From a virus: a DNA stretch of 21,346 nt. The translations under genes and the position numbers were made by a program. Under the pieces are notes generated by a model. It was given only the letters and a program-made list of their open reading frames with translations, searched no databases and was not told the origin of the DNA. Shown here in pieces: positions 1,321 through 20,039 of the stretch. The stretch is taken from IMG/VR virus record IMGVR_UViG_3300043449_001485, positions 1 to 21,346 of that record; one strand, written 5' to 3'. Each line of letters begins with the position of its first letter. Within the stretch, counting starts at the first letter, position 1.

Positions 1321-1349
1321 ATGTTACGTCACGAATGACTTATGGTCAA
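1321..1349 (-). promoter_or_regulatory. Candidate promoter for the tail fibre gene
   Basis: The minus strand reads TTGACC, 17 nt, TAACAT, a good sigma70-like pair. The -35 overlaps the stop codon of J. The spacer holds the dyad AGTCA-TTCG-TGACG directly before the -10, like the site at 18976..19004. The predicted start would fall about 15 nt before the fibre ATG, giving a very short leader. Not experimentally shown. Confidence 0.5.
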
Positions 1350-7081: not shown

Positions 7082-7659
7082 GGTGCGATCTCGTCAACGG
7101 AAATGGACGCGGAAATGGGGTGTGACCCCGTCAGCACGCGGCCATAGATCAATGGGATGGGGCGACCCTGCATCTCCGTGTTCACGGCGCCATCGAAGTA
7201 GAATGACTTGGCCGAGTCTTCGTTGGAGCCGTCAGGCAGCTTGGGGCGGGGGCTCAGAATCTCGATCACGCCACTCAGAGCGAGCGAGACGCCGGCCTGG
7301 AACATGAACTTGCTCCAGGGGCCAGGAACGTAGAACGAGCCGATAATCAGCAGCGCCCCGACGATGACCTTCACCACGCCGCTGGAGCCCGCGACGGTCG
7401 GTGAGAAGCGAATCAGCTTGAGGTTGGTTCGGGTCGCGACGTAGGTGTCGTCATCGAGCGCCTCTTCGCGCCCGTCGTCATAGACGCAGATGACTCGGTA
7501 GGCGCTGTACTTGTCGCGGTTCTGGACGACCCAGCTCTTCAGGCCGGGTGAATTGGCTTCGATCATGCGAAGCGCTTCCGCAGGGCTGGAAACGTCGAGT
7601 TCCCATTCCTTGCCGAATTTCTTTCCCATGACGCCGTCCAGGCGAACTTTTGTCAGCAT
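7078..7659 (-). CDS. I: Tail tip assembly protein I, 193 residues
   Basis: The gene lies between K and J, exactly as gpI does in lambda. The first 85 residues form a small beta/alpha domain with a WVVQNRDKYSAYRV segment. Two hydrophobic stretches follow (about residues 95-111 and 118-136). The C-terminal stretch GRPIPLIYGRVLTGSHPISA is the typical gpI signature. In lambda gpI is needed for tail-tip assembly with J, L and K but is not found in the finished virion. The ATG overlaps the end of K by 7 nt and the stop overlaps the J start by 4 nt, consistent with coupled translation. The Shine-Dalgarno is weak. A promoter-like sequence inside K could give I and J extra transcription. Family assignment is secure; the molecular role is taken from lambda. 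Confidence 0.93.
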   Translation of the reverse strand: MLTKVRLDGVMGKKFGKEWELDVSSPAEALRMIEANSPGLKSWVVQNRDKYSAYRVICVYDDGREEALDDDTYVATRTNLKLIRFSPTVAGSSGVVKVIVGALLIIGSFYVPGPWSKFMFQAGVSLALSGVIEILSPRPKLPDGSNEDSAKSFYFDGAVNTEMQGRPIPLIYGRVLTGSHPISASISVDEIAP

Positions 7660-8411
7660 TTTGTCCGATGTCTGAGGTGCAGCTTGACCCTGGAGTACCA
7701 GTACGGCCCGAATGTCTCCCGCCTTGAAAGGCGGTTGACGAGGTGATGCAAAATTATATCACCCGTGACATACAACGCAACGTGATTCGCTTTGTCCGAA
7801 TCCATTGCAATGCAGACCACATCGCCTTCCTGAAACTGGCCATCTTCAACTTTTACGAACCCGACGGACTCGCACGTTGTTTCATCAAGAATGTCGAAGC
7901 CCTTTTGCCACCACTTGTTGATCCGAAGGTGGGCCATGCGCTCGAGCCGGATGCCGTACTCACGCTCGTAGTAGTCCGCGACGAGCGAATAGCAGTCGAA
8001 AGTTCCAAAGATGTAGGGGCGCCCCACGTAGTCCACCTTGAGGCCCGAGGGCTTGACCAAGTTGGTGCCCTCATGAACGAGGGAACCATCGACCATTCTG
8101 ATGCTCGAGATCAGCCAGGGCAGCTCCGATGCTTCGCAGCCGGCCAGGTCGGCTTCCGACGGCTCGAACGAGTCGTTGGGATGCGAGTGCCAGATGGCCA
8201 GAATCTCACCCTCGTCCTCGGCCCGCGCGTAGTCGGTGTGCGAGATCAGGAAGTGGAGCTCCGGCTGCTCGGCCGCATTCGTGCAGGGCATGAACTGGGC
8301 CTTCTTGCCCTTGCCAATGATGAAGCCGCACGCCTCCTGCGGAAAGCAGGCTTCGGCGTGCAGACGCATCGCGGCGGTCAGCGTGTCGTCAATCTGCTCC
8401 TCGGACAGCAC
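7653..8411 (-). CDS. K: Tail tip hydrolase K: JAMM peptidase plus NlpC/P60 domains, 252 residues
   Basis: Two enzymatic domains are visible. The N-terminal JAMM/MPN+ domain has the catalytic Glu in EACGFIIG (Glu26) and the zinc motif HSH-x7-S-x2-D (His75, His77, Ser85, Asp88). The C-terminal NlpC/P60 domain has the nucleophile Cys140 in FDCYSLV and His210 in NHVALYV, with His222/His223 as possible third residue. This two-domain arrangement is typical of lambda-type gpK, thought to process tail-tip components and/or cut peptidoglycan during entry. I chose the GTG at 8411: a GGAGG Shine-Dalgarno sits 8 nt upstream and the protein then begins at the family's usual place. The ATG at 8480 would overlap L by 92 nt and add a non-conserved leader. 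The gene overlaps L by 23 nt. An AT-rich patch near its 3' end holds a candidate promoter. Confidence 0.94.
   Translation of the reverse strand: MLSEEQIDDTLTAAMRLHAEACFPQEACGFIIGKGKKAQFMPCTNAAEQPELHFLISHTDYARAEDEGEILAIWHSHPNDSFEPSEADLAGCEASELPWLISSIRMVDGSLVHEGTNLVKPSGLKVDYVGRPYIFGTFDCYSLVADYYEREYGIRLERMAHLRINKWWQKGFDILDETTCESVGFVKVEDGQFQEGDVVCIAMDSDKANHVALYVTGDIILHHLVNRLSRRETFGPYWYSRVKLHLRHRTKC
7753..7780 (-). promoter_or_regulatory. Candidate promoter inside K, directed toward I and J
   Basis: The minus strand reads TTGCGT, 16 nt, TATAAT. The spacer ends with GTCA-CGGG-TGA directly before the -10, the same dyad form as the intergenic promoters. The -10 also lies within the inverted repeat GGTGAT..ATCACC (7742..7747 and 7758..7763). 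The AT-rich patch is unusual for the surrounding GC-rich coding sequence. Confidence 0.4.
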
Positions 8412-9081: not shown

Positions 9082-9413
9082 GCTTCAAACACCTGCTCGA
9101 AGTCCATGTTCAGCACCACATGGCCTTCCTTCTTGATGAGGCTCCACTTGCGGCAGACGAACACCTTCTGTTGGTTGAAGGGCGTCGTCCAGTAGAAGCT
9201 CTCCAGGCCGTTGCGGGCCTGGATGAAGGCGAGCACGTCCGGAAACGATGCCGAGCTCCGAGTGAACTCGACCGACCACGTCTCGGGGTTGTTGTTGATG
9301 CCGTCAGGCGAGCGCAGCTCGTAGCCGTCGCCGAACTTGGTCACGTTGACCTTCGGCTCCTGGGAGAGCTTCGAGTCGTAGTTGGGTCGCCAATTGAAGG
9401 TTTGTCGTGCCAT
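9078..9413 (-). CDS. M: Minor tail protein M, 111 residues
   Basis: A small protein with the features of the phage tail gpM family: F.WRP near the N-terminus, VTKFGDGYELR, a conserved WSVEF segment and ESFYWTTPF near residue 73. Lambda gpM is 109 residues and joins the tail tip complex between the J-I-L-K initiator and the tape measure. The length here is nearly identical. It begins 14 nt after the tape measure stop, with AGGTGAGA as Shine-Dalgarno just before the ATG. It overlaps L by 4 nt. The short gap to the tape measure gene is mostly occupied by a TCA-N4-TGA dyad that partly overlaps the ribosome-binding region. The assignment is firm from both sequence and position. Confidence 0.94.
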   Translation of the reverse strand: MARQTFNWRPNYDSKLSQEPKVNVTKFGDGYELRSPDGINNNPETWSVEFTRSSASFPDVLAFIQARNGLESFYWTTPFNQQKVFVCRKWSLIKKEGHVVLNMDFEQVFEA

Positions 9414-9416
9414 ATC

Positions 9417-9429
9417 TCACCTGTGACTT
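9417..9429. other. TCA-N4-TGA dyad between the tape measure and M genes
   Basis: The minus strand reads AAGTCA-CAGG-TGA starting inside the tape measure stop codon. It closely resembles the copy inside K (GTCACnGGTGA). No convincing -35 element accompanies it, and the following GATATG is a poor -10 that overlaps the M start codon. It may be a stray binding site or simply part of the ribosome-binding region. Confidence 0.3.
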
Positions 9430-12400
9430 ATCGATTGTAGAGCAAGCCACCGGGGCGCTGCTGGTTGCCCATCTCGTCGAGGACGATTCCGCGCACGCGC
9501 TGGGCGACTTGTTGCCAGCGCTGGGCGTCATCACCTTCCGAGGCCGCGCTCTGCGTGCCGTCCTTGTTGACGACGATGTTGATGACCACGCCATTGGTGG
9601 TCGTGGTGCTACCGCCCGTCATCGTGACGGGGATGCTGCGGCCGTCAGGCAGCGGCACGTAGGCTTCGTTCATGCTGCCTTCGCCGAAGAGTGCGAGCTG
9701 CGGGCTGTTGGCGACACCGCCAGCGGCGTACTTCTTCAGAGACAGCGAGCCCATGCCGGACATGATGCCGCCCTTGGCAAAGCCGCTGATTGTGGCGTAG
9801 TCGAGCTGGCTCAACTCGGTCGCACCGCCAGCACCGCCGCCACCGAAGAGAGCCGTGATTCCACCCAAGCCCCCGACGCTCGATGCGCCGCTCGATGCGC
9901 TGATTGATGCCATTGCCGTCGTGACGGCGGTCGTGATCGCTGTCATGGCGGTCGTGATCGCGGCTGTGTTCGCGGTCATCGAGGTGCCGGTAGCGGTCGT
10001 CATGGCAGTCATTGCGGACGTGACGGCGGTCGTCTGAGCGGTCTGAGCGGCTGTGTCAGTACCCAGGCCGAGCATCTTGGTGAGTGACGAGCCGACCGAG
10101 CCGAAGCTCTTGGTGACGAAGTCGCCCAGCATGTTCTTCATCGTGACGCCGAGCAGGTCTTTGGCCATGCCGGCTGCAAACTCCTTCCACTTGAACGAGC
10201 CGCCTGCGACCACATTCACCAGACGATCCATGAAGCCGGACGCCCAGTTGGCGCTCAGTTGGTTCATCTGGGTTGTCGAGTCGCGCCAGTTACGGGCGAG
10301 GTCGTCCATCGCGGTGCGCGACTTGTTGGCGTAGTCGATCTCGGCAGCCAGGCGAGCCTTGGTTGCGTTCTCTTTCACCCGAGTGAGTTCCTCCTCGAGC
10401 TCTTTCTTGCGAGTCGCATCGTTCTCGTTCAGCGCAATGGCCTTCTGCAAGGCCGCTTCTTGCTTTGCGGCCTCTTCGTCGATTCGCTTGAGGTTCTGGT
10501 CGAACTCGAACTTGCGGGCCTCGCCCACGGTCTGAGTGCCCTTGACCTGCTCCAGCGTCGCGGCGCGGAATGCTTTCTTGGCGTCGGTGCCGAAGTTCAG
10601 CGCATCGGTGGTCGCCTGGTTGGCGAACGCGGCAGCCTTGGCCTTGTCGAAGGCGGCGAAGTCGTCCGTACCGGCCTTCAGCGTGGCGCGAAGGTCAGCG
10701 AACTTCTTCTCCAGCGCGATCATGCCGGCGCTTTCCTTGGCAAGACCATCGGAGGCGTAAGCGGTGCGTGCGGCGTTCAGGTCTTCCAGCGTCTTGCGCT
10801 CTTCCTGTTGAGCCTGGGCAAGCGCCTTCTGGCTCTCGGCGAGCTGCATCTCTTCTGCGAGCTCCTTGATGCGCTTGATGATCGCACCCTTCTGCTCCAG
10901 ACCTTTCAGCCCATTGATGAACGCATCGATGTCTGCTTTGCCGGCGGCCAGGTCAGCCGTGAACTTCGCGACATACTCCTTGCGGTCGCTCTGCCCACCG
11001 ACGAACTCGGTCACGCGCTTCTTGCCCGTTGCGTCAACGTCGATAGAGTCGTACTTGCCCGACGCCATCTCGCCCAGCACCTTGATGGTCGCTTCGTTAC
11101 GCAAGGCAACGAGATCGCGAGCATTCGCGGCGGTCGCTGCCAGCTTGGCTTTGGCCAGGGCGACGTTCGCCTCGAGCTCTTCGGCCATGCGAACCAGCGG
11201 GTCTTCCTTCTGGGACTGCGTGAGCGGCTTCTTATCCTTCGGGTCTTTGGCGACGTTGCTGCTCTTGCCGAGCGTCTCGGACTGCTTGGCCAGCAACTCG
11301 GCCTTCTCGATCAGACCGCCCTGCTCGTTCGAGAGCGCCTTCAGTCGGGCGTTCAGCGTCTTCGCCTCTTCGGGTGTCGCCGTCTTCAGAGCCTCGTTGG
11401 TCTTCTTCTGCACTTCGCGCAGGTTGGCCAGCGAGCCCGAGATGACCTGGAGCTGGAGCGCCGTGATCTCTTTCAGACCGGCGTCCGAGACCTTGGCCAG
11501 TTGAGCGGCGCTCACCTCTTTGCCGGCGGCGTTCGCCTCCTTGATGAGCGCAGTCTTCGAGTCGGCGATGTCCTTGCGAATCTTGTTGATCTTGTCGGTC
11601 GCTTCGCGGAACAGCGCGTTGTTCTCAGCCTCGAGCGCACGACGCTCGGTGTTGACCCGAACGTCTTCCTCGTTCTGCCCCTTGACCTTGCTCTGGATCG
11701 CGGCCGTCTTGCGGAGGTTCTCGCGGTCGTTCATGGCGTTCTTCAGGTCTTCGTTCTGCTGGTCGAAAATCTTCTGCTCGGCCCGAAGCATCTCGGCCAG
11801 GCCGTTGTTGCCGGCACGGGTCGCGGCATTGATCGCCTCGTCAGTGACCCGAGCCTTGCGGTTGGGGTTGTTGACGATCCGCTCGAGACCGGCGATCTCG
11901 ACATCTCGACGCTTGATGGCGTCTTCGACGTTCTTTTGCTTGTCCTCCGATGTCACGCCCTGGGATGCGGCATCTACCGCTTCCTGGACGCGCTCCCAGA
12001 AGCTCAGAGCCTCGCGCAGCTTGGCCACCATGAAGCCCAGCGCCATGATCGCGACGTTGATCCAGCCGCCAAACGCATTGACGACCGAGTTCACGCCCAT
12101 CATGGCACGACCCATGAAGCTGATGCCGTTGCCGGCCGAGACGGCGGCTGCGGCCTTCTGGTTCAGAAGGTCGGTCGCTTTCTGGCGCTCGGCGTTGGCT
12201 TGATTGACAACAGCGATGTCTTGACGAGATGCGGTCGTGCCGGCCCGAGTTGCCTCGGCCAGGCGATCGTGAGCGTCCGCGACCTTTCGCATCTCGTCAG
12301 CCTGCTGGCGACGAGCGACGGCTTCGGTCTGGATTTCAACGATGGCTTCGCGGGTCTCGTCGCGACGAGCCGTGAGGCGGTCGATCTTCTGCTGACCGGC

Positions 12401-14365: not shown

Positions 14366-14385
14366 GCGTACTCCTTTGAATTCAT

Positions 14386-14417
14386 AAAAAGAAAAAGCCT
14401 CGCACTAGGCGAGGCTT
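14386..14417 (-). terminator. Intrinsic terminator after the major tail protein gene
   Basis: The minus strand has a perfect 9-bp stem, AAGCCTCGC (14417..14409) with GCGAGGCTT (14403..14395), a 5-nt loop and the tract TTTCTTTTT. It lies 33 nt past the major tail protein stop and 20 nt before the G start, so it probably limits read-through from the highly expressed tube gene into the chaperones. Confidence 0.9.
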
Positions 14418-14446
14418 ATTCTATACGACTTCAGTCAGTTGTGAAA
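14418..14446 (-). promoter_or_regulatory. Candidate promoter abutting the terminator, for G/GT onward
   Basis: The minus strand reads TTTCAC, 17 nt, TAGAAT (or TATAGA shifted 2 nt). The -10 touches the first base of the terminator's 5' arm. The 11-mer TCACAACTGAC (14434..14444) is shared with the promoter at 18976..19004, and the dyad GACT-GA-AGTC lies just before the -10. The -35 is poor, so confidence is limited. Confidence 0.4.
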
Positions 14447-14450
14447 GAGC

Positions 14451-15323
14451 TTACGCACCCACAGTGAACAGTTTGCCGTTGCCGTCCGGATAGCCGGTGA
14501 ACTCGGTGTTGTAGACGCGCTCGGCATCCAGCTTGTACGCGAAGTTCATGGCGCCGGGTGTTGCGGCCAGAGGAATCACGAAGTCTTCCGACTTGTCGCT
14601 GGCAGGCTTGCCAACGGGGTGGATACGCAGCTCCTTGGCGTAGGTCAGCAAGTCCACGCCCACGCCGGTAGGCACGGACACGGAAGCGCCGGTGGGGTCA
14701 GCACCGCCAGTCAGAGTCGCGCCGGACACAGTCACCTTGGCGGCGGCAGTGCCAGTTGCGATCGTGAAGGCGTTGCCCTCGGCGCCCTTCTTGCCGGTCG
14801 AACCGTAAGTCAGTTGGGCGCCGTAAGTCACGGTCACGACGGCGGCAGCGGCTGCATAGCTGGCGACAGCGATCAGAGGATCGGTCGAAGCGTTCAGGGC
14901 AGCAGCCAGGTTGGCAGCGGTTGCGTTCGCGGCAGCGCCGATCAGCACTTCGTTGCCCACGCCAGTCAGCGCGGTGCGGAAGGTCACGGTGGCGCCGTTC
15001 ACGATGATCGTGTCGCCGGTGGTGGGTTGGGTGGTCACGGTGATCGTGCCGGTAGCGGTCGAGCCACCAACGGTTGCCAGCGTGGCGCCAGGCATGATCG
15101 ACACGAGGTTCTCGAGGGTGGTTTCAGCCATAGGCACTTTGGCCATGACTTCGCGACCCATGATGTATTCGTTGATCGTCGTGTTACCGAACTGATCGAT
15201 ATTGACTTTGTGTGTCTCAGTGGTGACTGTGACTTCGACGCCGCCTTGGGTGTAGCCCAAGTCCACGCCGTCAAAGAAAACCTGGCAGACGCCAAGTTTC
15301 ACGTTTTTTGTATTCGATGCCAT
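14451..15323 (-). CDS. Major tail (tube) protein with inserted beta-rich domain, 290 residues
   Basis: The N-terminal region (CQVFFDGVDLGYTQGGVEVTV, HKVNIDQFGNTTINEYIMG, MAETTLENL) and the C-terminal part (ELRIHPVGKPASDKSEDFVI, NFAYKLDAERVYNTEF) together look like a siphophage tube protein. Residues about 89-211 interrupt it with a Thr/Ala/Val-rich domain: TGTITVTTQPTTGDTIIVNG, then ANATAANLAAALNAS, then KGAEGNAFTIA. That pattern recurs in many phage tail and fibre proteins. The insert probably projects from the outside of the tube. AAAGGAG stands 6 nt before the ATG. The gene has its own promoter-like sequence upstream and a strong terminator downstream, fitting a protein needed in many copies. 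The function of the insert is unknown. Confidence 0.88.
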   Translation of the reverse strand: MASNTKNVKLGVCQVFFDGVDLGYTQGGVEVTVTTETHKVNIDQFGNTTINEYIMGREVMAKVPMAETTLENLVSIMPGATLATVGGSTATGTITVTTQPTTGDTIIVNGATVTFRTALTGVGNEVLIGAAANATAANLAAALNASTDPLIAVASYAAAAAVVTVTYGAQLTYGSTGKKGAEGNAFTIATGTAAAKVTVSGATLTGGADPTGASVSVPTGVGVDLLTYAKELRIHPVGKPASDKSEDFVIPLAATPGAMNFAYKLDAERVYNTEFTGYPDGNGKLFTVGA

Positions 15324-15349
15324 TAGAAGCTCCTTTGCAAAGGTGATTT

Positions 15350-15371
15350 GAAGTCACTGCTTAATGACTTC
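15350..15371. repeat. Inverted repeat in the leader of the major tail protein gene
   Basis: GAAGTCA (15350..15356) and TGACTTC (15365..15371) form a perfect 7-bp dyad with an 8-nt spacer. It lies between the candidate promoter and the Shine-Dalgarno. It may be a hairpin in the 5' leader or a protein site; the AAGTCA half recurs at other operon boundaries. No T tract follows, so it is not a standard terminator. Confidence 0.7.
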
Positions 15372-15384
15372 GCCGGTGCCCGAG

Positions 15385-15413
15385 ACTCTACCACAAGTGG
15401 ACATAAAAGTCCA
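15385..15413 (-). promoter_or_regulatory. Candidate promoter for the major tail protein gene
   Basis: The minus strand reads TGGACT, 17 nt, TAGAGT, wholly inside the 97-nt gap. The spacer ends with the dyad CCAC-TT-GTGG directly before the -10, the same arrangement as the capsid promoter. TGGAC..GTCCA also forms a dyad across the -35. The -35 is not close to consensus. Confidence 0.45.
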
Positions 15414-15420
15414 GCATTTC

Positions 15421-15882
15421 TTAGAAGTAGGATTTTGCTACATCGATGAGGCGGCTCATGATGCGTGCCGAGACCTCGTCGGCCGCACGCTCGAGGAACC
15501 GTCCACCCACACGACCGCTGCCGCCGTCCTTGGCTGCCGAGCGCTTGCCGAGGTTCAGCGGCCCGTACGGCGTCAGGTGCTCGTGCATGATGTAGGCGTA
15601 CTGCGACATCGGCTCGCCGTTGTAGCCCTCGGCGTCCATGTCGATGAACACCGACAGCGCCTTGCGGACGAATCGGCCTCGAGCGTCACGACCGCCGCCC
15701 AGGACTTCCATCTTGATGGCATCCTCCAGGTTGCCGTGGTCGATCGGGGCGTAGGTTCGGGCAAGGTCGCGAATGGACTGCGCCTCGACCTTCATCTGCT
15801 CGAAGATGCCGTCAGTGGCCTTGGGGCCGAGCTGGCGGAGCATCACCATCAGTTCATCAGCGCCTTCAAGCTGCATACCCAT
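15421..15882 (-). CDS. HK97 gp10-like neck / tail completion protein, 153 residues
   Basis: The opening MGMQLEGADELMVMLRQLG is typical of the HK97 gp10-like family (GxxEL...L..L), as are the early helix, the middle TYAPIDHGNLEDAI segment, a YAYIMHEHLTPYG segment and the C-terminal FLERAADEVSARI helix. Members of this family act at the head-tail neck or tail completion step. AGGAG stands 6 nt before the chosen ATG; the ATG two codons later is a weaker option. The gene overlaps the upstream terminator-like gene by 17 nt, and the major tail protein follows after a 97-nt regulatory gap. It is the last gene of the neck block. The family call is good; the exact role in this phage is inferred from relatives. 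Confidence 0.82.
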   Translation of the reverse strand: MGMQLEGADELMVMLRQLGPKATDGIFEQMKVEAQSIRDLARTYAPIDHGNLEDAIKMEVLGGGRDARGRFVRKALSVFIDMDAEGYNGEPMSQYAYIMHEHLTPYGPLNLGKRSAAKDGGSGRVGGRFLERAADEVSARIMSRLIDVAKSYF

Positions 15883-16264
15883 ACTTCGCTCCTGAGAAGG
15901 CGGTATGGAAGTTGACCTGCACCTCGTAGAAGTTGCCGTCCGACACCGGGAACGAGATCGGCAGGCTGGTCGGGTACATGTGCTTGACGGACATGCCGTC
16001 GAGCTCCTCGTTGTAGAGGGTGAGCGCGAGCATGACCTCGCGCATGAGCTCCAGCGCCTTGGTGTACTCGGGCGAGCGCACGACGACCATGAAGGGCGAC
16101 TTGAAGTAGCCAGGAAGCTCGTGGTCGATGGTGACGCCCGACAGCGGACTGCGAAGCATGATCGCGGTCTTGGCTTCCATCGGCATGAAGTTGATGAAGA
16201 GCGTCTTGCCCTGGACGCCCAGGCCCTCGAACTCCAGCTTGTTGGCGATTGGCATCAAGTCCAT
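15866..16264 (-). CDS. Probable tail terminator protein, 132 residues
   Basis: The start is the ATG at 16264 (MDLMPIANKLEFEGLG), which follows the previous stop by 2 nt and has GGAG 6 nt upstream. The frame runs open further upstream but that part is out-of-frame translation of the previous gene. The size, the opening helix, KTLFINFMP, the long helix ALELMREVMLALTLY and the final beta segment YEVQVNFHTAF fit the tail-terminator / minor capsid family, which caps the tail tube at the head-proximal end. The place just before the gp10-like gene and the tube gene supports this. No single catalytic motif is expected. A related neck role cannot be excluded. Confidence 0.7.
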   Translation of the reverse strand: MDLMPIANKLEFEGLGVQGKTLFINFMPMEAKTAIMLRSPLSGVTIDHELPGYFKSPFMVVVRSPEYTKALELMREVMLALTLYNEELDGMSVKHMYPTSLPISFPVSDGNFYEVQVNFHTAFSGAKYGYAA

Positions 16265-16266
16265 GT

Positions 16267-16611
16267 TCAGCTCCAGACCGAGGCGGTGATTTCGTAGTGA
16301 TCCAGCACGCCGCCCACCGAGTAGCGCGGGTGCTTGGAGAGGATTCGCAGCTTCGAGCCGCCCACGTCGATCAGGTCGTCGATGTTGGCCGCAGTCGTTG
16401 CGGTCAGAAGGATCAACGAGTCGCCCACCAGTTCCTTGGCATTGCCGCGAGACGCGGAGCTGTCCGCGCGAACGGCGCTCTTCATGTTGGTGGTGACGAG
16501 GCGCACGATCGCGCACTGCTCGCGCACCTTGGTGGCGGCAAGCGGCTGGCCGTAGACATCCGTGCGACCGGATGCCACGGTGATGTAGCAGACTTGGTTA
16601 GGACGGAACAT
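16267..16611 (-). CDS. Probable head closure (stopper) protein, 114 residues
   Basis: A small beta-rich protein of the size of head-tail stoppers. It begins MFRPNQVCYITVASGRTDVYG, where G.TDVYGQP recalls the exposed loop region of the family, and ends LRILSKHPRYSVGGVLDHYEI. It overlaps the upstream gene by 14 nt and is 2 nt from the next ATG. Stopper proteins bind below the adaptor ring and keep DNA in the filled head until the tail joins. The identification rests on size, fold-like pattern and position between adaptor and terminator, so it is moderate. The Shine-Dalgarno is weak, as expected for translation coupled to the overlapping gene. Confidence 0.6.
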   Translation of the reverse strand: MFRPNQVCYITVASGRTDVYGQPLAATKVREQCAIVRLVTTNMKSAVRADSSASRGNAKELVGDSLILLTATTAANIDDLIDVGGSKLRILSKHPRYSVGGVLDHYEITASVWS

Positions 16612-17272
16612 GAGGGCCGATCTTCGCGGTTGCGTTGTAATGAAAGACGGTCTCGGCGATGTCGTCGAAGCTCGGGTAGCCTGGCGTGGCGCCTGACATC
16701 GAGAAGACCAGTCCGTTGTTCTTGTGGCCAGGATCGTCGTAGATCACCTGCGCCAGATCGCTCTCCCAGGAGAACGCGACCATCTGTTGCTGAAGCCACG
16801 TCTGGTAGGCGAACTGACGGGCCTGTGACTTGACGAAGGGCGCGGCCTGGAAGGTGCGTCCCGATGCGGATGTCACGTTGAACTCGGGTGTGGAGAGCTT
16901 GCGTTGCAGCAGCAGGCCCATCGCGCCGTGAACTTCACCGACCGCATCCAGCTCGTTGTTCTTGGCGCCCTTCATGCGGTTCGAGAGCGACTGGATGTTC
17001 TGGCCGGTCACGCGGGCGAGCTCCTCACTGAAGCCCTGCGAAAGCGCTTTGACGGTGTCCAGATCGCTCACACCGACATAGTCAGCAATCGAGCGATTGG
17101 CGGTCTTCAGGAACGTCTCACGCAGCTCGGATGCGGTGCGCTCGAACTGTGTGATGAGCATCGGGGACACGGAGACCCCCGGCGCCATCACCGACAGGTA
17201 GCGGCCCGAGAGTGCGAAGAGGAAGAGCTCGTACTCCGACTTCAGGCGAATTGCGAAGCCTTCGTACTGCAT
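16598..17272 (-). CDS. Unrecognised neck-region structural protein, 224 residues
   Basis: I do not recognise this protein. The ATG at 17272 (MQYEGFAIRLKSEYELFLFAL) shares one base with the adaptor stop (TGATG), typical of coupled translation; the frame continues upstream to an ATG at 17338, but that part lies inside the adaptor gene. The N-terminal 110 residues are mainly helical and charged (FERTASELRETFLKTANRS, DLDTVKALSQGFSEELAR). A middle segment is SNRMKGAKNNELDAVGEVHG. The C-terminal third has DDPGHKNNGLVFSMSGATPG and YPSFDDIAETVFHYNA, which might recall minor head / morphogenesis proteins, but weakly. It lies between adaptor and stopper, so a neck or minor head role is likely. No membrane segment, signal peptide or catalytic motif is visible. 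Confidence 0.8.
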   Translation of the reverse strand: MQYEGFAIRLKSEYELFLFALSGRYLSVMAPGVSVSPMLITQFERTASELRETFLKTANRSIADYVGVSDLDTVKALSQGFSEELARVTGQNIQSLSNRMKGAKNNELDAVGEVHGAMGLLLQRKLSTPEFNVTSASGRTFQAAPFVKSQARQFAYQTWLQQQMVAFSWESDLAQVIYDDPGHKNNGLVFSMSGATPGYPSFDDIAETVFHYNATAKIGPHVPS

Positions 17273-18120
17273 CAGCCACGTCCGATCCGCTTGGCAAAGC
17301 TCACGTAGTAGCTCAGGTAGCCGAGCGCACGTCGGCACACGGGCAGGGTCAGCATGTGGCCCTGGACGAACTTCGTCGTGCTCTCGCCGATCTTTTCTTC
17401 GATGACGCCAGCGGTACGCCGCGCATCATCAGGCTCGCCGCCCAGAATGTAGTTGGCCTCGACCACCTGGGCCTGGCGCAACGCACGCTTGAACTTCTCC
17501 GGCAGTTGGTTGAACTGGGTCTCGTTCAGCAGGTTCAGGTTGCCGTTAAAGAGGAACAGGCTGTTGCGAGCCACGTAGGACGACTGGAACGAGCCCTCGG
17601 GCACGTAGTTCAGGCTGTCCTGACCGAAGTTCACGTTGGAGTTCAGCATGTTGAAGTTCAACTGCGTGATGTGCTCCCGAGCGTCCATCAGTGCGGCGAT
17701 CTGGTCGCGCTCACTTGCGGCATTGAATGCGGCGATGTTGGGCATGTCGAGCGCCGTCAGTTGAGCCATCGGAAACGTCTGGAAGCTCGTCTCGGGAATC
17801 TTCAGCGGATCGGTTGTCTCGATCGCGTAGGTCTTGCTGATGCCGATTGTTCCGGTGTCGGTCGCGCAGCGCAGCTCCACGGTGCGAATCTCGCGAGTTG
17901 CGGACGCCGTGAGCTGGTTGGATGTCGTGGGGATGACGACGACAGCCTGGCTGTCACCCGAGGTGAAGCTCGCCAGGCTGGCTTGTGGGACAAGCGCCAC
18001 GCCGTTCATGTCCAGCACCGAGTACTGGACGGAGTTGACGCTCAGTTCATTCCCCGCCGCATCGACGAGGTCGATGGTGAGTGTGACTTCCGTGCCGGCA
18101 AGGTAGATGTCGAGCGCCAT
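17272..18120 (-). CDS. Head-tail adaptor protein with Ig-like N-terminal domain, 282 residues
   Basis: The C-terminal half has the pattern of adaptor proteins that sit under the portal: an early helix (RDQIAALMDAREHITQLNF), a middle loop, then LPEKFKRALRQAQVVEANYILGG, RRTAGVIEEKIGESTTKF and a final helix (LPVCRRALGYLSYYV). Ordinary adaptors are about 100-180 residues. Here about 105 extra residues come first, beta-rich with alternating hydrophobic positions (GTEVTLTIDLVDAAGNELSV, VQYSVLDMNGVALVP, IRTVELRCATDTG), which look Ig-like. GGAG stands 6 nt before the ATG, 3 nt after the previous stop. The protein likely links the capsid vertex to the stopper, with the extra domain exposed. The adaptor call is moderate; the Ig-like label is an inference from pattern only. 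Confidence 0.65.
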   Translation of the reverse strand: MALDIYLAGTEVTLTIDLVDAAGNELSVNSVQYSVLDMNGVALVPQASLASFTSGDSQAVVVIPTTSNQLTASATREIRTVELRCATDTGTIGISKTYAIETTDPLKIPETSFQTFPMAQLTALDMPNIAAFNAASERDQIAALMDAREHITQLNFNMLNSNVNFGQDSLNYVPEGSFQSSYVARNSLFLFNGNLNLLNETQFNQLPEKFKRALRQAQVVEANYILGGEPDDARRTAGVIEEKIGESTTKFVQGHMLTLPVCRRALGYLSYYVSFAKRIGRG

Positions 18121-18123
18121 TGA

Positions 18124-18549
18124 TTACTCCGTAGGGCCTTGATGTTTCAGGATCGCTTCGATCAGGCCGACGATCGAGGTGCCCTTGACGCCAAGGGGAT
18201 CGGCGATGGCGCGAAGACCCGCGATACCGTCGGCATCGGCGATCTTGGCCAGGTCGTCCTTGGAGTAGGTCGTGCCGCTGGTTGGAGCGGCGGTCTTGGC
18301 TTGAGACTCGGCAGGTGCCGATGCCTCGCTGGAGCCGCTACCCACGAAAGCGGGTGCATCCATGTTGTTCAGGTACATGTCACCGACGTTGGCGGCCGAG
18401 CCGTCCTCCCAGTCAGCGCCGATGGCGGCCGAGATGCGGATCGCATCGATCGGCAGCACGTCACCTTCCGACAGGCCGTCCTTGAACATCACCACGCCCA
18501 TCTGGCCGGTGTACTTCTCAAAGCCCGCTTGGGTCAGGCGCAACTTCAT
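18124..18549 (-). CDS. Small capsid-associated paralogue with C-terminal HeH-like domain, 141 residues
   Basis: The first 45 residues (MKLRLTQAGFEKYTGQMG, then MFKDGLSEGDVL) are a diverged copy of those of the upstream neighbour. A Ser/Ala/Thr-rich linker follows (about 70-92). The last 45 residues (YSKDDLAKIADADGIAGLRAI, then DPLGVKGTSIVGLIEAIL) match the helix-extension-helix pattern found at the ends of various phage proteins, related to SAP/LEM nucleic-acid-binding folds. Its ATG overlaps the neighbour's stop by 4 nt (ATGA). It lies between the major capsid protein and the adaptor, where decoration, completion or head-tail proteins are usual, but I cannot assign a role. The HeH-like part could bind DNA or another virion protein. 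Confidence 0.85.
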   Translation of the reverse strand: MKLRLTQAGFEKYTGQMGVVMFKDGLSEGDVLPIDAIRISAAIGADWEDGSAANVGDMYLNNMDAPAFVGSGSSEASAPAESQAKTAAPTSGTTYSKDDLAKIADADGIAGLRAIADPLGVKGTSIVGLIEAILKHQGPTE

Positions 18550-18926
18550 TTGGCCACCTTCGTGACCTGAGCGGCGGCAGCTTCCTCGGCGGCGGCTTGC
18601 GCGGCAGCTTCGGCAGCGTCGGCTTCGGCACGCTCACGTTCAGCTTCGGCGGCCAGGCGCTCGGCTTCGGCAATCTTTGCTGCCGCATCCTGGTCCACAA
18701 CTTCTTGACCCTGCGAGGTCAATTCAGCGCCCTGGGCCTGTGTTTCGGCATCGCTTTGACCCGATGGGGTCACTTCTTCGCTGAAGCTCTCGACAGTGAA
18801 CATGGCCGCGACGTAAGCGGCTTGCTGGTCGCTCACCTCGTTGACGGACGTGCCGCCCTCGAACTTCACATCTCCGAGCAGACCCGTGAAGGTCTGGTAG
18901 CCAGATTGGGTAATACGGATTTTCAT
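18546..18926 (-). CDS. Small capsid-associated paralogue with Ala/Glu-rich tail, 126 residues
   Basis: The N-terminal domain (MKIRITQSGYQTFTGLLGDV, then KFEGGTSVNEV, AAYVAAMF) is a short beta-like unit shared with the next gene. The rest is a low-complexity helical stretch from about residue 75 (KIAEAERLAAEAERERAEAD, then AAEAAAQAAAEEAAAAQ) ending VTKVAK. Such a tail may form a coiled coil. It is the first gene after the capsid gene's terminator, with AAGGAG 6 nt before the ATG, and it overlaps the next gene by 4 nt. I do not recognise a family with known function. A decoration or head-completion role is a guess from position alone. Confidence 0.85.
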   Translation of the reverse strand: MKIRITQSGYQTFTGLLGDVKFEGGTSVNEVSDQQAAYVAAMFTVESFSEEVTPSGQSDAETQAQGAELTSQGQEVVDQDAAAKIAEAERLAAEAERERAEADAAEAAAQAAAEEAAAAQVTKVAK

Positions 18927-18940
18927 TGGGGACTCCTTAC

Positions 18941-18974
18941 AAAAGAAAAGGGCGAGCCTTATGAGCTCGCCCTT
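18941..18974 (-). terminator. Intrinsic terminator after the major capsid gene
   Basis: The minus strand has a perfect 10-bp stem, AAGGGCGAGC (18974..18965) with GCTCGCCCTT (18957..18948), a 7-nt loop and a TTTTCTTTT tract overlapping its end. It lies 36 nt past the capsid stop. Its layout is nearly the same as that of the terminator after the major tail gene. Confidence 0.92.
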
Positions 18975-18975
18975 G

Positions 18976-19004
18976 ATTCTACGTCAGTTGTGACTGACTC
19001 GCAA
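18976..19004 (-). promoter_or_regulatory. Candidate promoter overlapping the capsid terminator
   Basis: The minus strand reads TTGCGA, 17 nt, TAGAAT. The spacer is almost wholly the palindrome GTCAGT-CACA-ACTGAC (18998..18983). The -10 ends one base before the terminator's 5' arm, so the predicted start lies within that arm and its transcripts could not form the full stem. It would serve the two small paralogues and the neck genes. Confidence 0.5.
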
Positions 19005-19010
19005 CACCGA

Positions 19011-19922
19011 TTAGATGTTGGTCACGCCTTGCAGACGACCGATGGAGCGGGTGCTCTTCAGTGCCAGGCCGGTGTACCACTTCAGACGGATGCGGGTAGC
19101 ATCTTTGTTCTGAACGGTGCCGATGTTCTCGACCACGATACCGGCGTTGTCGCCGCCATACAGGCCGTGCAGACCGTCCAACTCGTTCAGACGCAGAGCG
19201 TAGACCGAGCAGGTGTCAGTGGCGGAGCCCTTGTCTTCGTCGCCGGCCAGGAACTCGTTCATGATGACCGGAATGCCGTTGTGAGTCAGCATGGGGCGGC
19301 CAAAGTTCTCGAGCTGCTGCATCACGGCGTCAGTGCCGTAAGTGGCGCGCAACAGAGCACGGAAGGCGCGGATCGTGCCGCGACGCATCACGAGCACGTC
19401 AGGACCGTTGGGCACGCTGTCAACCAGCTCGTCGAGCATGGTCAGGGTCAGCGCGTTGCCGTTCGCACCAGCAGACACGGTCTGGGTTGCGCCAGCGGCA
19501 GCAGCCAGAACGGGCAGGCCGTCGAACTCTTTGGCGTTGGCAGTGGCGTCGCCCTTGGCCAGTGTGCGGTGGAATTCGCGAGACACGGCCTTGGCCTTCT
19601 TCGCGATCTGCACAGCCATCTGGTCGTTGGTGTCGCCCATTGTGGATTGCAGGAACTTGTCCACGTCCACGTCGCCAGCCAGGATACGCAGCTTGGCCAC
19701 GACTTCAGTGAAGGTCGCAGCGGATTCGCTGATCGCTTCATTGGGGTCAAGCCATGCAGCACCACCCAGGGTGTTTTCACGGTTGTAAACGTATGCCTTG
19801 CCATTCACGCCGATGAACGGCAGAACGGCCATCAGGTCATCACGTTCGATGATCTGGTCGATAACGCCAGCGATGAGCTGGTTGTTACTCAGTTTCTCAG
19901 CTTCTGCGCGGAGGAGAGCCAT
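19011..19922 (-). CDS. Major capsid protein, 303 residues
   Basis: It directly follows the scaffolding gene, is flanked by its own promoter and terminator, and has the size and make-up of an HK97-fold coat protein. An N-terminal helix (SNNQLIAGVIDQIIERDDLM) is followed by LPFIGVNGKAYVYNRE, an E-loop-like region (AAWLDPNEAISESAATFTEV), the long spine helix (NDQMAVQIAKKAKAVSREFH), then EFDGLPVL and the axial-domain pattern PNGPDVLVMRRGTIRAFRAL with GRPMLTHNGIPVIMNEFL. No cleavage site or maturation protease gene lies between portal and capsid genes. The separate scaffold suggests assembly without a fused delta domain. AAAGGAAA precedes the ATG. The leader can fold (TGCCTC with GAGGCA). HK97 fold is inferred from pattern, not from a structure. 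Confidence 0.9.
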   Translation of the reverse strand: MALLRAEAEKLSNNQLIAGVIDQIIERDDLMAVLPFIGVNGKAYVYNRENTLGGAAWLDPNEAISESAATFTEVVAKLRILAGDVDVDKFLQSTMGDTNDQMAVQIAKKAKAVSREFHRTLAKGDATANAKEFDGLPVLAAAAGATQTVSAGANGNALTLTMLDELVDSVPNGPDVLVMRRGTIRAFRALLRATYGTDAVMQQLENFGRPMLTHNGIPVIMNEFLAGDEDKGSATDTCSVYALRLNELDGLHGLYGGDNAGIVVENIGTVQNKDATRIRLKWYTGLALKSTRSIGRLQGVTNI

Positions 19923-19975
19923 TTGATTTCCTTTCGAGGAGGGGTTTATTCAATGCCTCGGTCCTTACGTCGCTC

Positions 19976-20039
19976 TAAGTCACCGATGAGGCAGGACTAT
20001 ACCACACTTTGTGGCAAATTGCAAGTCATCGGTGACTTA
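19976..20039. repeat. 14-bp perfect inverted repeat framing the capsid promoter
   Basis: TAAGTCACCGATGA (19976..19989) and TCATCGGTGACTTA (20026..20039) are exact reverse complements separated by 36 bp. The right arm is part of a smaller palindrome, AAGTCA-TCGG-TGACTT (20023..20038). The promoter lies between the arms, with one arm at the -35 and the other near the predicted start. This fits a pair of operator sites or a large hairpin. Confidence 0.85.
19996..20024 (-). promoter_or_regulatory. Candidate promoter for the major capsid gene
   Basis: The minus strand reads TTGCAA, 17 nt, TATAGT, the best promoter-like sequence in the window apart from its framing. The spacer ends with the dyad CCACA-AAG-TGTGG directly before the -10. 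The start would fall near 19989, giving a leader of about 65 nt before the capsid ATG. Confidence 0.6.

Follow-up and report, generated by a model that had tools for sequence, protein, structure and literature searches.

Probable boundary cassettes after the capsid and tail tube genes of a virus related to phage-plasmids: a terminator, an in-arm promoter and a repressor-type operator

We consider a 21-kb virus fragment (IMG/VR record IMGVR_UViG_3300043449_001485), the whole 21,346-nucleotide stretch of which is called the window here. Two structural genes on its minus strand concern us, that of the major capsid protein (MCP; 19011..19922, phrog_212, E 3e-96) and that of the major tail (tube) protein with an Ig-like part (14451..15323; phrog_2175, E 2e-56, and phrog_885, major tail protein). 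Relatives of the capsid gene are found in SSU5, in the Stenotrophomonas phages ANB28 and BUCTxx99 and in the Pseudomonas phage nickie, as well as in hundreds of plasmid records (Klebsiella, Escherichia, Acinetobacter) and in at least 80 IMG/VR contigs; judged from these relatives, the virus of the window would have a phage-plasmid life style. No Rfam family matches the window at gathering thresholds.

Downstream of both genes, on the minus strand, a similar set of elements is closely packed. The MCP gene is followed by a -35-like TTGCGA (19004-18999, with TTG here in many relatives), the 11-mer TCACAACTGAC (18993-18983), one base, the -10 hexamer TAGAAT (18981-18976, at a 17-nt spacer from TTGCGA), one more base, and an 11-pair stem-loop (18974-18948) that runs into TTCTTTTG, with its T-tract at 18938-18947. 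After the tube gene, the -35-like TTCACA (14445-14440, from the promoter scan) overlaps the 11-mer (14444-14434), and 10 bases separate the latter from TAGAAT (14423-14418; 16-nt spacer), which was read directly and is also returned by the scan. The 9-pair stem-loop (14417-14395, from scan and folding) then begins without an intervening base and is followed by TTTCTTTTT (T-tract 14385-14394). The sequence-only reading had described this order of 11-mer, TAGAAT, 0 or 1 nt, stem and T-tract, and the minus strand agrees with it base for base. Counting from the -10 hexamers, the predicted transcription starts are at 18967..18971 (centre 18969, within the 5' arm of the stem) and at 14409..14413 (centre 14411).

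Both modules have the form expected of their parts: the hexamer pairs are of the sigma70 type at 16-18 nt spacing, with 10 of 12 matches after the tube gene and 9 of 12 after the MCP gene, and the hairpins have GC-rich stems of at least five pairs with a T-tract directly after, as intrinsic terminators do. The MCP hairpin (11 pairs) folds at -19.5 kcal/mol and the tube hairpin (9 pairs) at -14.7 kcal/mol, with z below -4.9. The generic scans of the window return 8 terminators where 9.5 are expected, which is not above chance, and 3 promoters where 1.4 are expected, which is barely so; the two modules are the two best of these terminators and two of the three promoters. A generic scan alone is thus insufficient, and it is the conservation between related sequences that makes the case for the predicted modules.

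What is the 11-mer? It has exactly two copies in the window, and we reject it as a -35 box or other fixed promoter hexamer because its distance to the -10 is 1 nt in the MCP module and 10 nt in the tube module, a difference of 9 nt. It belongs to a palindrome of 14 bp, AGTCA-N4-TGACT, which reads AGTCACAACTGACG after the MCP gene (18995-18982, directly before TAGAAT) and TTTCACAACTGACT after the tube gene (14446-14433, with nine further bases before TAGAAT). The sequence-only reading had noted the 11-mer but missed what it means: it lies in a palindromic operator of repressor type that recurs genome-wide and whose gap to the -10 differs between the two modules. We also rejected the palindrome as an RNA hairpin, since its arms are conserved in sequence and show no covariation apart from one variant.

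Without prior input, AGTCAN4TGACT came out as the commonest palindrome of its class in nine of nine relatives of about 108 kb, and GTCAN4TGAC occurs in 19-37 copies per relative where about 1-3 are expected (six relatives tested). A weight matrix with the consensus TAAGTCACTAGTGACTTA finds 37-61 sites per ~108-kb relative, as against about 1 expected per genome and 0-2 in shuffled sequences, and 10 sites in the window, as against 0.4 expected; the palindrome is spread over the whole genome and on both strands. The greedy ORF caller gave many antisense ORFs in GC-rich relatives, and its inside-gene and intergenic labels are kept out of the evidence. There is no excess of matrix sites in BUCTxx99 and nickie. 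In the Acinetobacter baumannii phage-plasmid pA52-1 the geometry is the same with one base changed per half site, and this AGTAA-N4-TTACT shares the first place among the palindromes of that genome.

In the window, several of the operators stand at the boundaries of late genes: two before the MCP gene and one after it, one before and one after the tube gene, one at the tape-measure junction and one after the last large tail gene. The operator after the MCP gene (TCAGTCACAACTGACGTA on the minus strand, 18980..18997, 20.8 bits) includes the 11-mer and lies in the promoter spacer, and the operator after the tube gene (TCTTTCACAACTGACTGA, 14431..14448, 16.8 bits) has one weaker half and overlaps the -35 of the promoter. 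Upstream of the MCP gene, a conserved operator (20022..20039, 22.8 bits) overlaps the -35 edge of that gene's own promoter, TTGCAA-17-TATAGT (19996..20024, minus strand), which is found at the same position in relatives, several of them with TTGACA-17-TATAGT; a second, weaker operator (19976..19993, 13.2 bits; perfect in L041, L048 and L065) lies just 3' of the -10. This pair, one operator at the -35 edge and another, often weaker, after the -10, is present at the MCP promoter of many relatives. Just past the last large tail gene an operator (1325..1342, 22.0 bits) lies beside TAACAT, and another (9413..9430, 19.0 bits) falls precisely into the space that separates the tape-measure gene from the tail gene after it; this last one has no clear promoter and may be a roadblock site.

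The leader of the capsid mRNA, within 19953-19987, contains a strongly conserved element of a different kind, ATCGGTGACTTAGAGCGACTTAGGCCCGA (19964-19979, minus strand). It apparently folds into a small hairpin whose loop is constant (GAGCGAC or AAGCGAC) and whose stem varies, being CTTA/TAAG in the window and GGCAA/TTGCC in L067. The element can still be recognised in relatives as distant as the Acinetobacter elements and may act in the control or the stability of the capsid mRNA.

We turn to the conservation of the capsid-gene module. The capsid stop codon was located in 105 loci, and the operator, the -10 and the stem were sought downstream of it without forced spacing. All three are present in 71 of these loci (53 distinct sequences), with MCP identity down to 53%; among them are loci beside capsids 53-66% identical to that of the window (L123, L125-L127, L133). 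Across the 53 distinct loci the distance from the end of the -10 to the start of the stem is -1 to 2 nt (sd 0.52), and the operator adjoins the -10 (sd 0.37 nt), while the flanking spacings drift, from stop codon to operator with an sd of 2.7 nt and from the stem to the next start codon with an sd of 3.1. The GTCA/TGAC halves of the operator are nearly invariant across 48 aligned relatives. The stem covaries, with seven of nine pairs changed on both sides in relatives and 32 cells so changed against 8.5 in shuffles (none of 500 shuffles as high); over operator and stem together, 97.4% of cells are paired. A -10-like hexamer adjoins the stem in 53 of the 56 distinct loci with an operator and in 3 of the 12 without one, and several relatives (L003, L067, L070, L124) keep the MCP terminator with neither an operator nor a clear -10; therefore promoter and operator come together, while a terminator may also stand by itself.

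The tube module is spread more narrowly. Its operator, 9-10-nt gap, -10 and adjoining stem are found after the tube gene in 16 loci, the window and its closer relatives, while five loci outside the branch of the window have their hairpin 18-22 nt downstream, and many have a poor T-tract. The sequence-only reading had proposed two modules of one design and a search of related phages for -10 elements adjoining terminators after both genes. Both modules stand in the window, and the search succeeds after the capsid gene; after the tube gene, the overlap is limited to the branch of the window.

Several related elements were seen elsewhere. A third module of the same design (G001 103431-103449, locus L091) has the operator, TATAAT, a few bases, a GC-rich stem and TTTTTCTTT. 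In two other relatives, 18-mers starting at G002 64769 and G004 21728 are associated with a different overlap of promoter and hairpin, in which the operator precedes TTGACA and a -10-like GACAAT, the latter inside a terminator-like hairpin. In SSU5 (L004), the MCP terminator is immediately preceded by an inverted repeat of the phage's own, GGTAAGTAATTATCTACC, and a different palindrome, AAACAANTTGTTT, is frequent, with 11-14 copies; these are possibly SSU5's own operators. Genes of sigma-70-like factors are present in G001 (80521-81219), G002 (44984-45793), G003 (7089-7748), G008 (21059-21829) and pA52-1 (18432-19097, with a weak Sigma70_r2 match), and such a factor might recognise some of these promoters.

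What would the overlap of promoter and terminator do to the transcripts? With the predicted +1 set 5, 6, 7, 8 or 9 nt past the -10, it falls inside the 5' arm in all 71 loci with the MCP module, as the sequence-only reading had predicted for the window. The shortened transcript then lacks about half of the stem, and with it the base that adjoins the T-tract: the median hairpin over the 71 loci folds at -7.3 kcal/mol, against -18.2 kcal/mol with the full stem, and in 55 of them the base of the remaining hairpin is 5-6 nt away from the T-tract. In the window, RNA from 18969 folds at -7.3 against -19.5 kcal/mol at full length, and RNA from 14411 at -5.3 against -14.7 kcal/mol. Intrinsic termination requires a stem adjacent to the T-tract, and because of this the escape of transcripts from these promoters is soundly predicted, provided that the +1 is correctly placed. 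Given that start, the earlier proposal that incoming transcripts stop while local ones pass is probably correct as far as it goes; what it missed is an operator of repressor type that would gate initiation.

The next question is how the operators relate to promoters in general. A promoter scoring at least 9 overlaps 148 of 461 operators (27 expected with shuffled flanks), and one scoring at least 10 overlaps 58 of 461 (3 expected); about two thirds overlap none scoring at least 9, and some of these operators may act otherwise. Taking 6 nt between -10 and +1, the operator centres fall at about -19.5 (52 sites, the MCP-module type), at -41.5 (24 sites, the MCP-promoter type) and in a third cluster from +2 to +9 (about 30 sites). 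There are thus many copies of one site, many of them in promoters, which is the distributed-operator pattern of P1 C1, L5 and phiC31. We favour the logic of a repressor because one palindrome occurs at many promoter positions, near-consensus promoters included, which an activator bound to one position would not need.

Putting these parts together, we read the modules as boundary cassettes between two late transcription units, each with a terminator, a promoter starting inside its 5' arm and a repressor operator, and we give this reading a probability of roughly 0.7. Polymerase arriving from the capsid or tube gene would transcribe the whole stem and stop at the intrinsic terminator; the sigma70-type promoter would start the next unit inside the 5' arm, and its RNA, without the base of the stem, would pass the terminator. 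The palindromic operator TAAGTCAnnnnTGACTTA in or beside the promoter, one of roughly 40-60 such sites in the genome, would be bound by a phage repressor, most likely a small protein of the Cro/CI type with a helix-turn-helix (HTH), so that each structural unit is silent in the dormant state. Probably, the end of one message, the start of the next and the control that keeps both silent in the dormant virus are combined in a single stretch of 60 bases.

The operators could instead act mainly as roadblocks to elongating polymerase, in the manner of stoperators, with the terminator finishing the stalled complexes and initiation being secondary. The many operators in gene junctions with no obvious promoter, such as 9413-9430 between two tail genes, and the two thirds of operators with no promoter scoring at least 9 speak for this; promoter overlap at 5-19 times the expectation and the symmetry of the sites, which allows no orientation with transcription, unlike the L5 stoperators (PMC9283540), make it unlikely. 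We also hold it unlikely that the cassette is a device for polymerase hand-off and gating, in which the polymerase releases the capsid mRNA at the T-tract, slides backwards along the DNA by about 25 bp and restarts at the overlapping promoter, with one repressor palindrome gating the step. E. coli polymerase does stay on the DNA after intrinsic termination and reinitiates nearby in vitro (PMC6978380, PMC11347151), the distance from the termination site to the predicted +1 is about 25 bp, and the -10 to stem distance is held in the 53 distinct loci; however, proximity alone would not require a +1 inside the arm, and such reinitiation is still undemonstrated in vivo (PMC11347151). If a hand-off were at work, which could supplement the boundary-cassette reading instead of replacing it, the capsid output would feed the expression of the next genes directly while the two mRNAs are kept separate.

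The late promoters of phage P1 need the activator Lpa and have a repeat at -22, and the palindrome could in the same way bind a late-gene activator on which a -10 without a good -35 depends. The palindrome centre of the MCP module at about -19.5 is near that position, and palindrome and -10 co-occur (the 53 of 56 against 3 of 12 loci above). The Lpa-like activator was downgraded from the leading reading once the operator was found at several promoter positions, and we consider it rather unlikely: other promoters have the same palindrome at -41.5 and at about +2 to +9, and it is genome-wide on both strands and accompanies the MCP promoter, which in several relatives is near consensus (TTGACA-17-TATAGT) and needs no such help; nor does the repeat keep to a position near -22 as a substitute for a -35, a -35-like TTG being present. 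That the hairpin is a terminator only, beside a weak or inactive -10-like hexamer and with downstream genes read through incomplete termination, would suit the four relatives with a lone terminator, but is quite unlikely with a -10 to stem distance held to 0.5 nt while its flanks vary by about 3 nt, and with a -10 that accompanies an operator which overlaps promoters elsewhere too.

For the boundary cassettes, then, which protein would bind the operator? A Cro/CI-type HTH protein of 140-170 aa (HTH_3, PF01381, phrog_8; open frame 85078-85554 in G001) is encoded in all operator-bearing genomes compared and in pA52-1, and is absent from SSU5, nickie and BUCTxx99; from this correlation of gene distribution among related genomes, it is most likely the repressor and is our best candidate. 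The best solved match of its profile is 8bny, deposited as an immunity repressor (E 9e-5), and its helix region, of the FNKPNIITMIKQGKTK type, is nearly constant in most of the genomes with GTCA-type operators, with G003 deviating, and differs in pA52-1. The gene has no operator at its own start, the nearest upstream ones being 370-650 nt off. A ribbon-helix-helix-like protein (G005 10151-10564), also common to all operator genomes compared, is the second candidate; neither gene was found within the short window. A search for an S24-type (LexA/CI-like) repressor gave none. An HTH_17 excisionase-like protein has an operator directly upstream in some cases; it was rejected as a general repressor, with no convincing detection in the operator-bearing G001, G006, G008 and G009 or in the Acinetobacter element.

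How does this arrangement compare with known systems? In the cluster A mycobacteriophage L5, 20-30 repressor sites are present genome-wide in promoters and short intergenic gaps (PMC6550527, PMC9283540). Repressor-type sites scattered over the genome are thus common to both; the L5 sites, however, are asymmetric, follow the direction of transcription and are recognised by a monomer, whereas the site here is a 14-bp palindrome, fused to a promoter and terminator at the capsid boundary. The C1 operators of phage P1 are asymmetric too. This phage-plasmid carries repressor operators at scattered sites, together with rho-independent terminators and late promoters of a special kind (PMC8201110). Scattered operators and such terminators are shared, and the difference is that one palindrome is used here at several promoter positions. 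Palindromic repressor sites that lie throughout intergenic regions and overlap promoters are known from phiC31; its conserved inverted repeats are alike in being palindromic and scattered, with another sequence, host and repressor, and we know of no terminator fused to them. The part of the LUZ100 report considered here (PMC10134795) describes, for this T7-like phage, an MCP gene that has a promoter to itself and a strong terminator immediately behind it; that promoter is one for a phage-specific polymerase, and the same part describes no promoter inside the terminator. The phage-plasmids of the SSU5 type share homologues of the capsid and tail genes, and behind the MCP gene they too have an inverted repeat and then a terminator; SSU5 lacks both AGTCAN4TGACT as the main palindrome and the HTH protein.

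In the literature searched, we found no description matching an overlapping promoter and terminator of this kind in phages. Distributed operators, terminators of capsid genes and neighbouring promoters are each already known; what looks new is their fusion in one 60-base cassette whose spacings vary by only about half a nucleotide between phages that have diverged very far. Such a cassette would offer a compact, naturally occurring insulator part and a natural system in which to test whether polymerase is recycled after termination. The comparison also supplies a predicted immunity operator, with a candidate repressor, for the phages and phage-plasmids of a large family that has relatives among Klebsiella, Escherichia and Acinetobacter elements.
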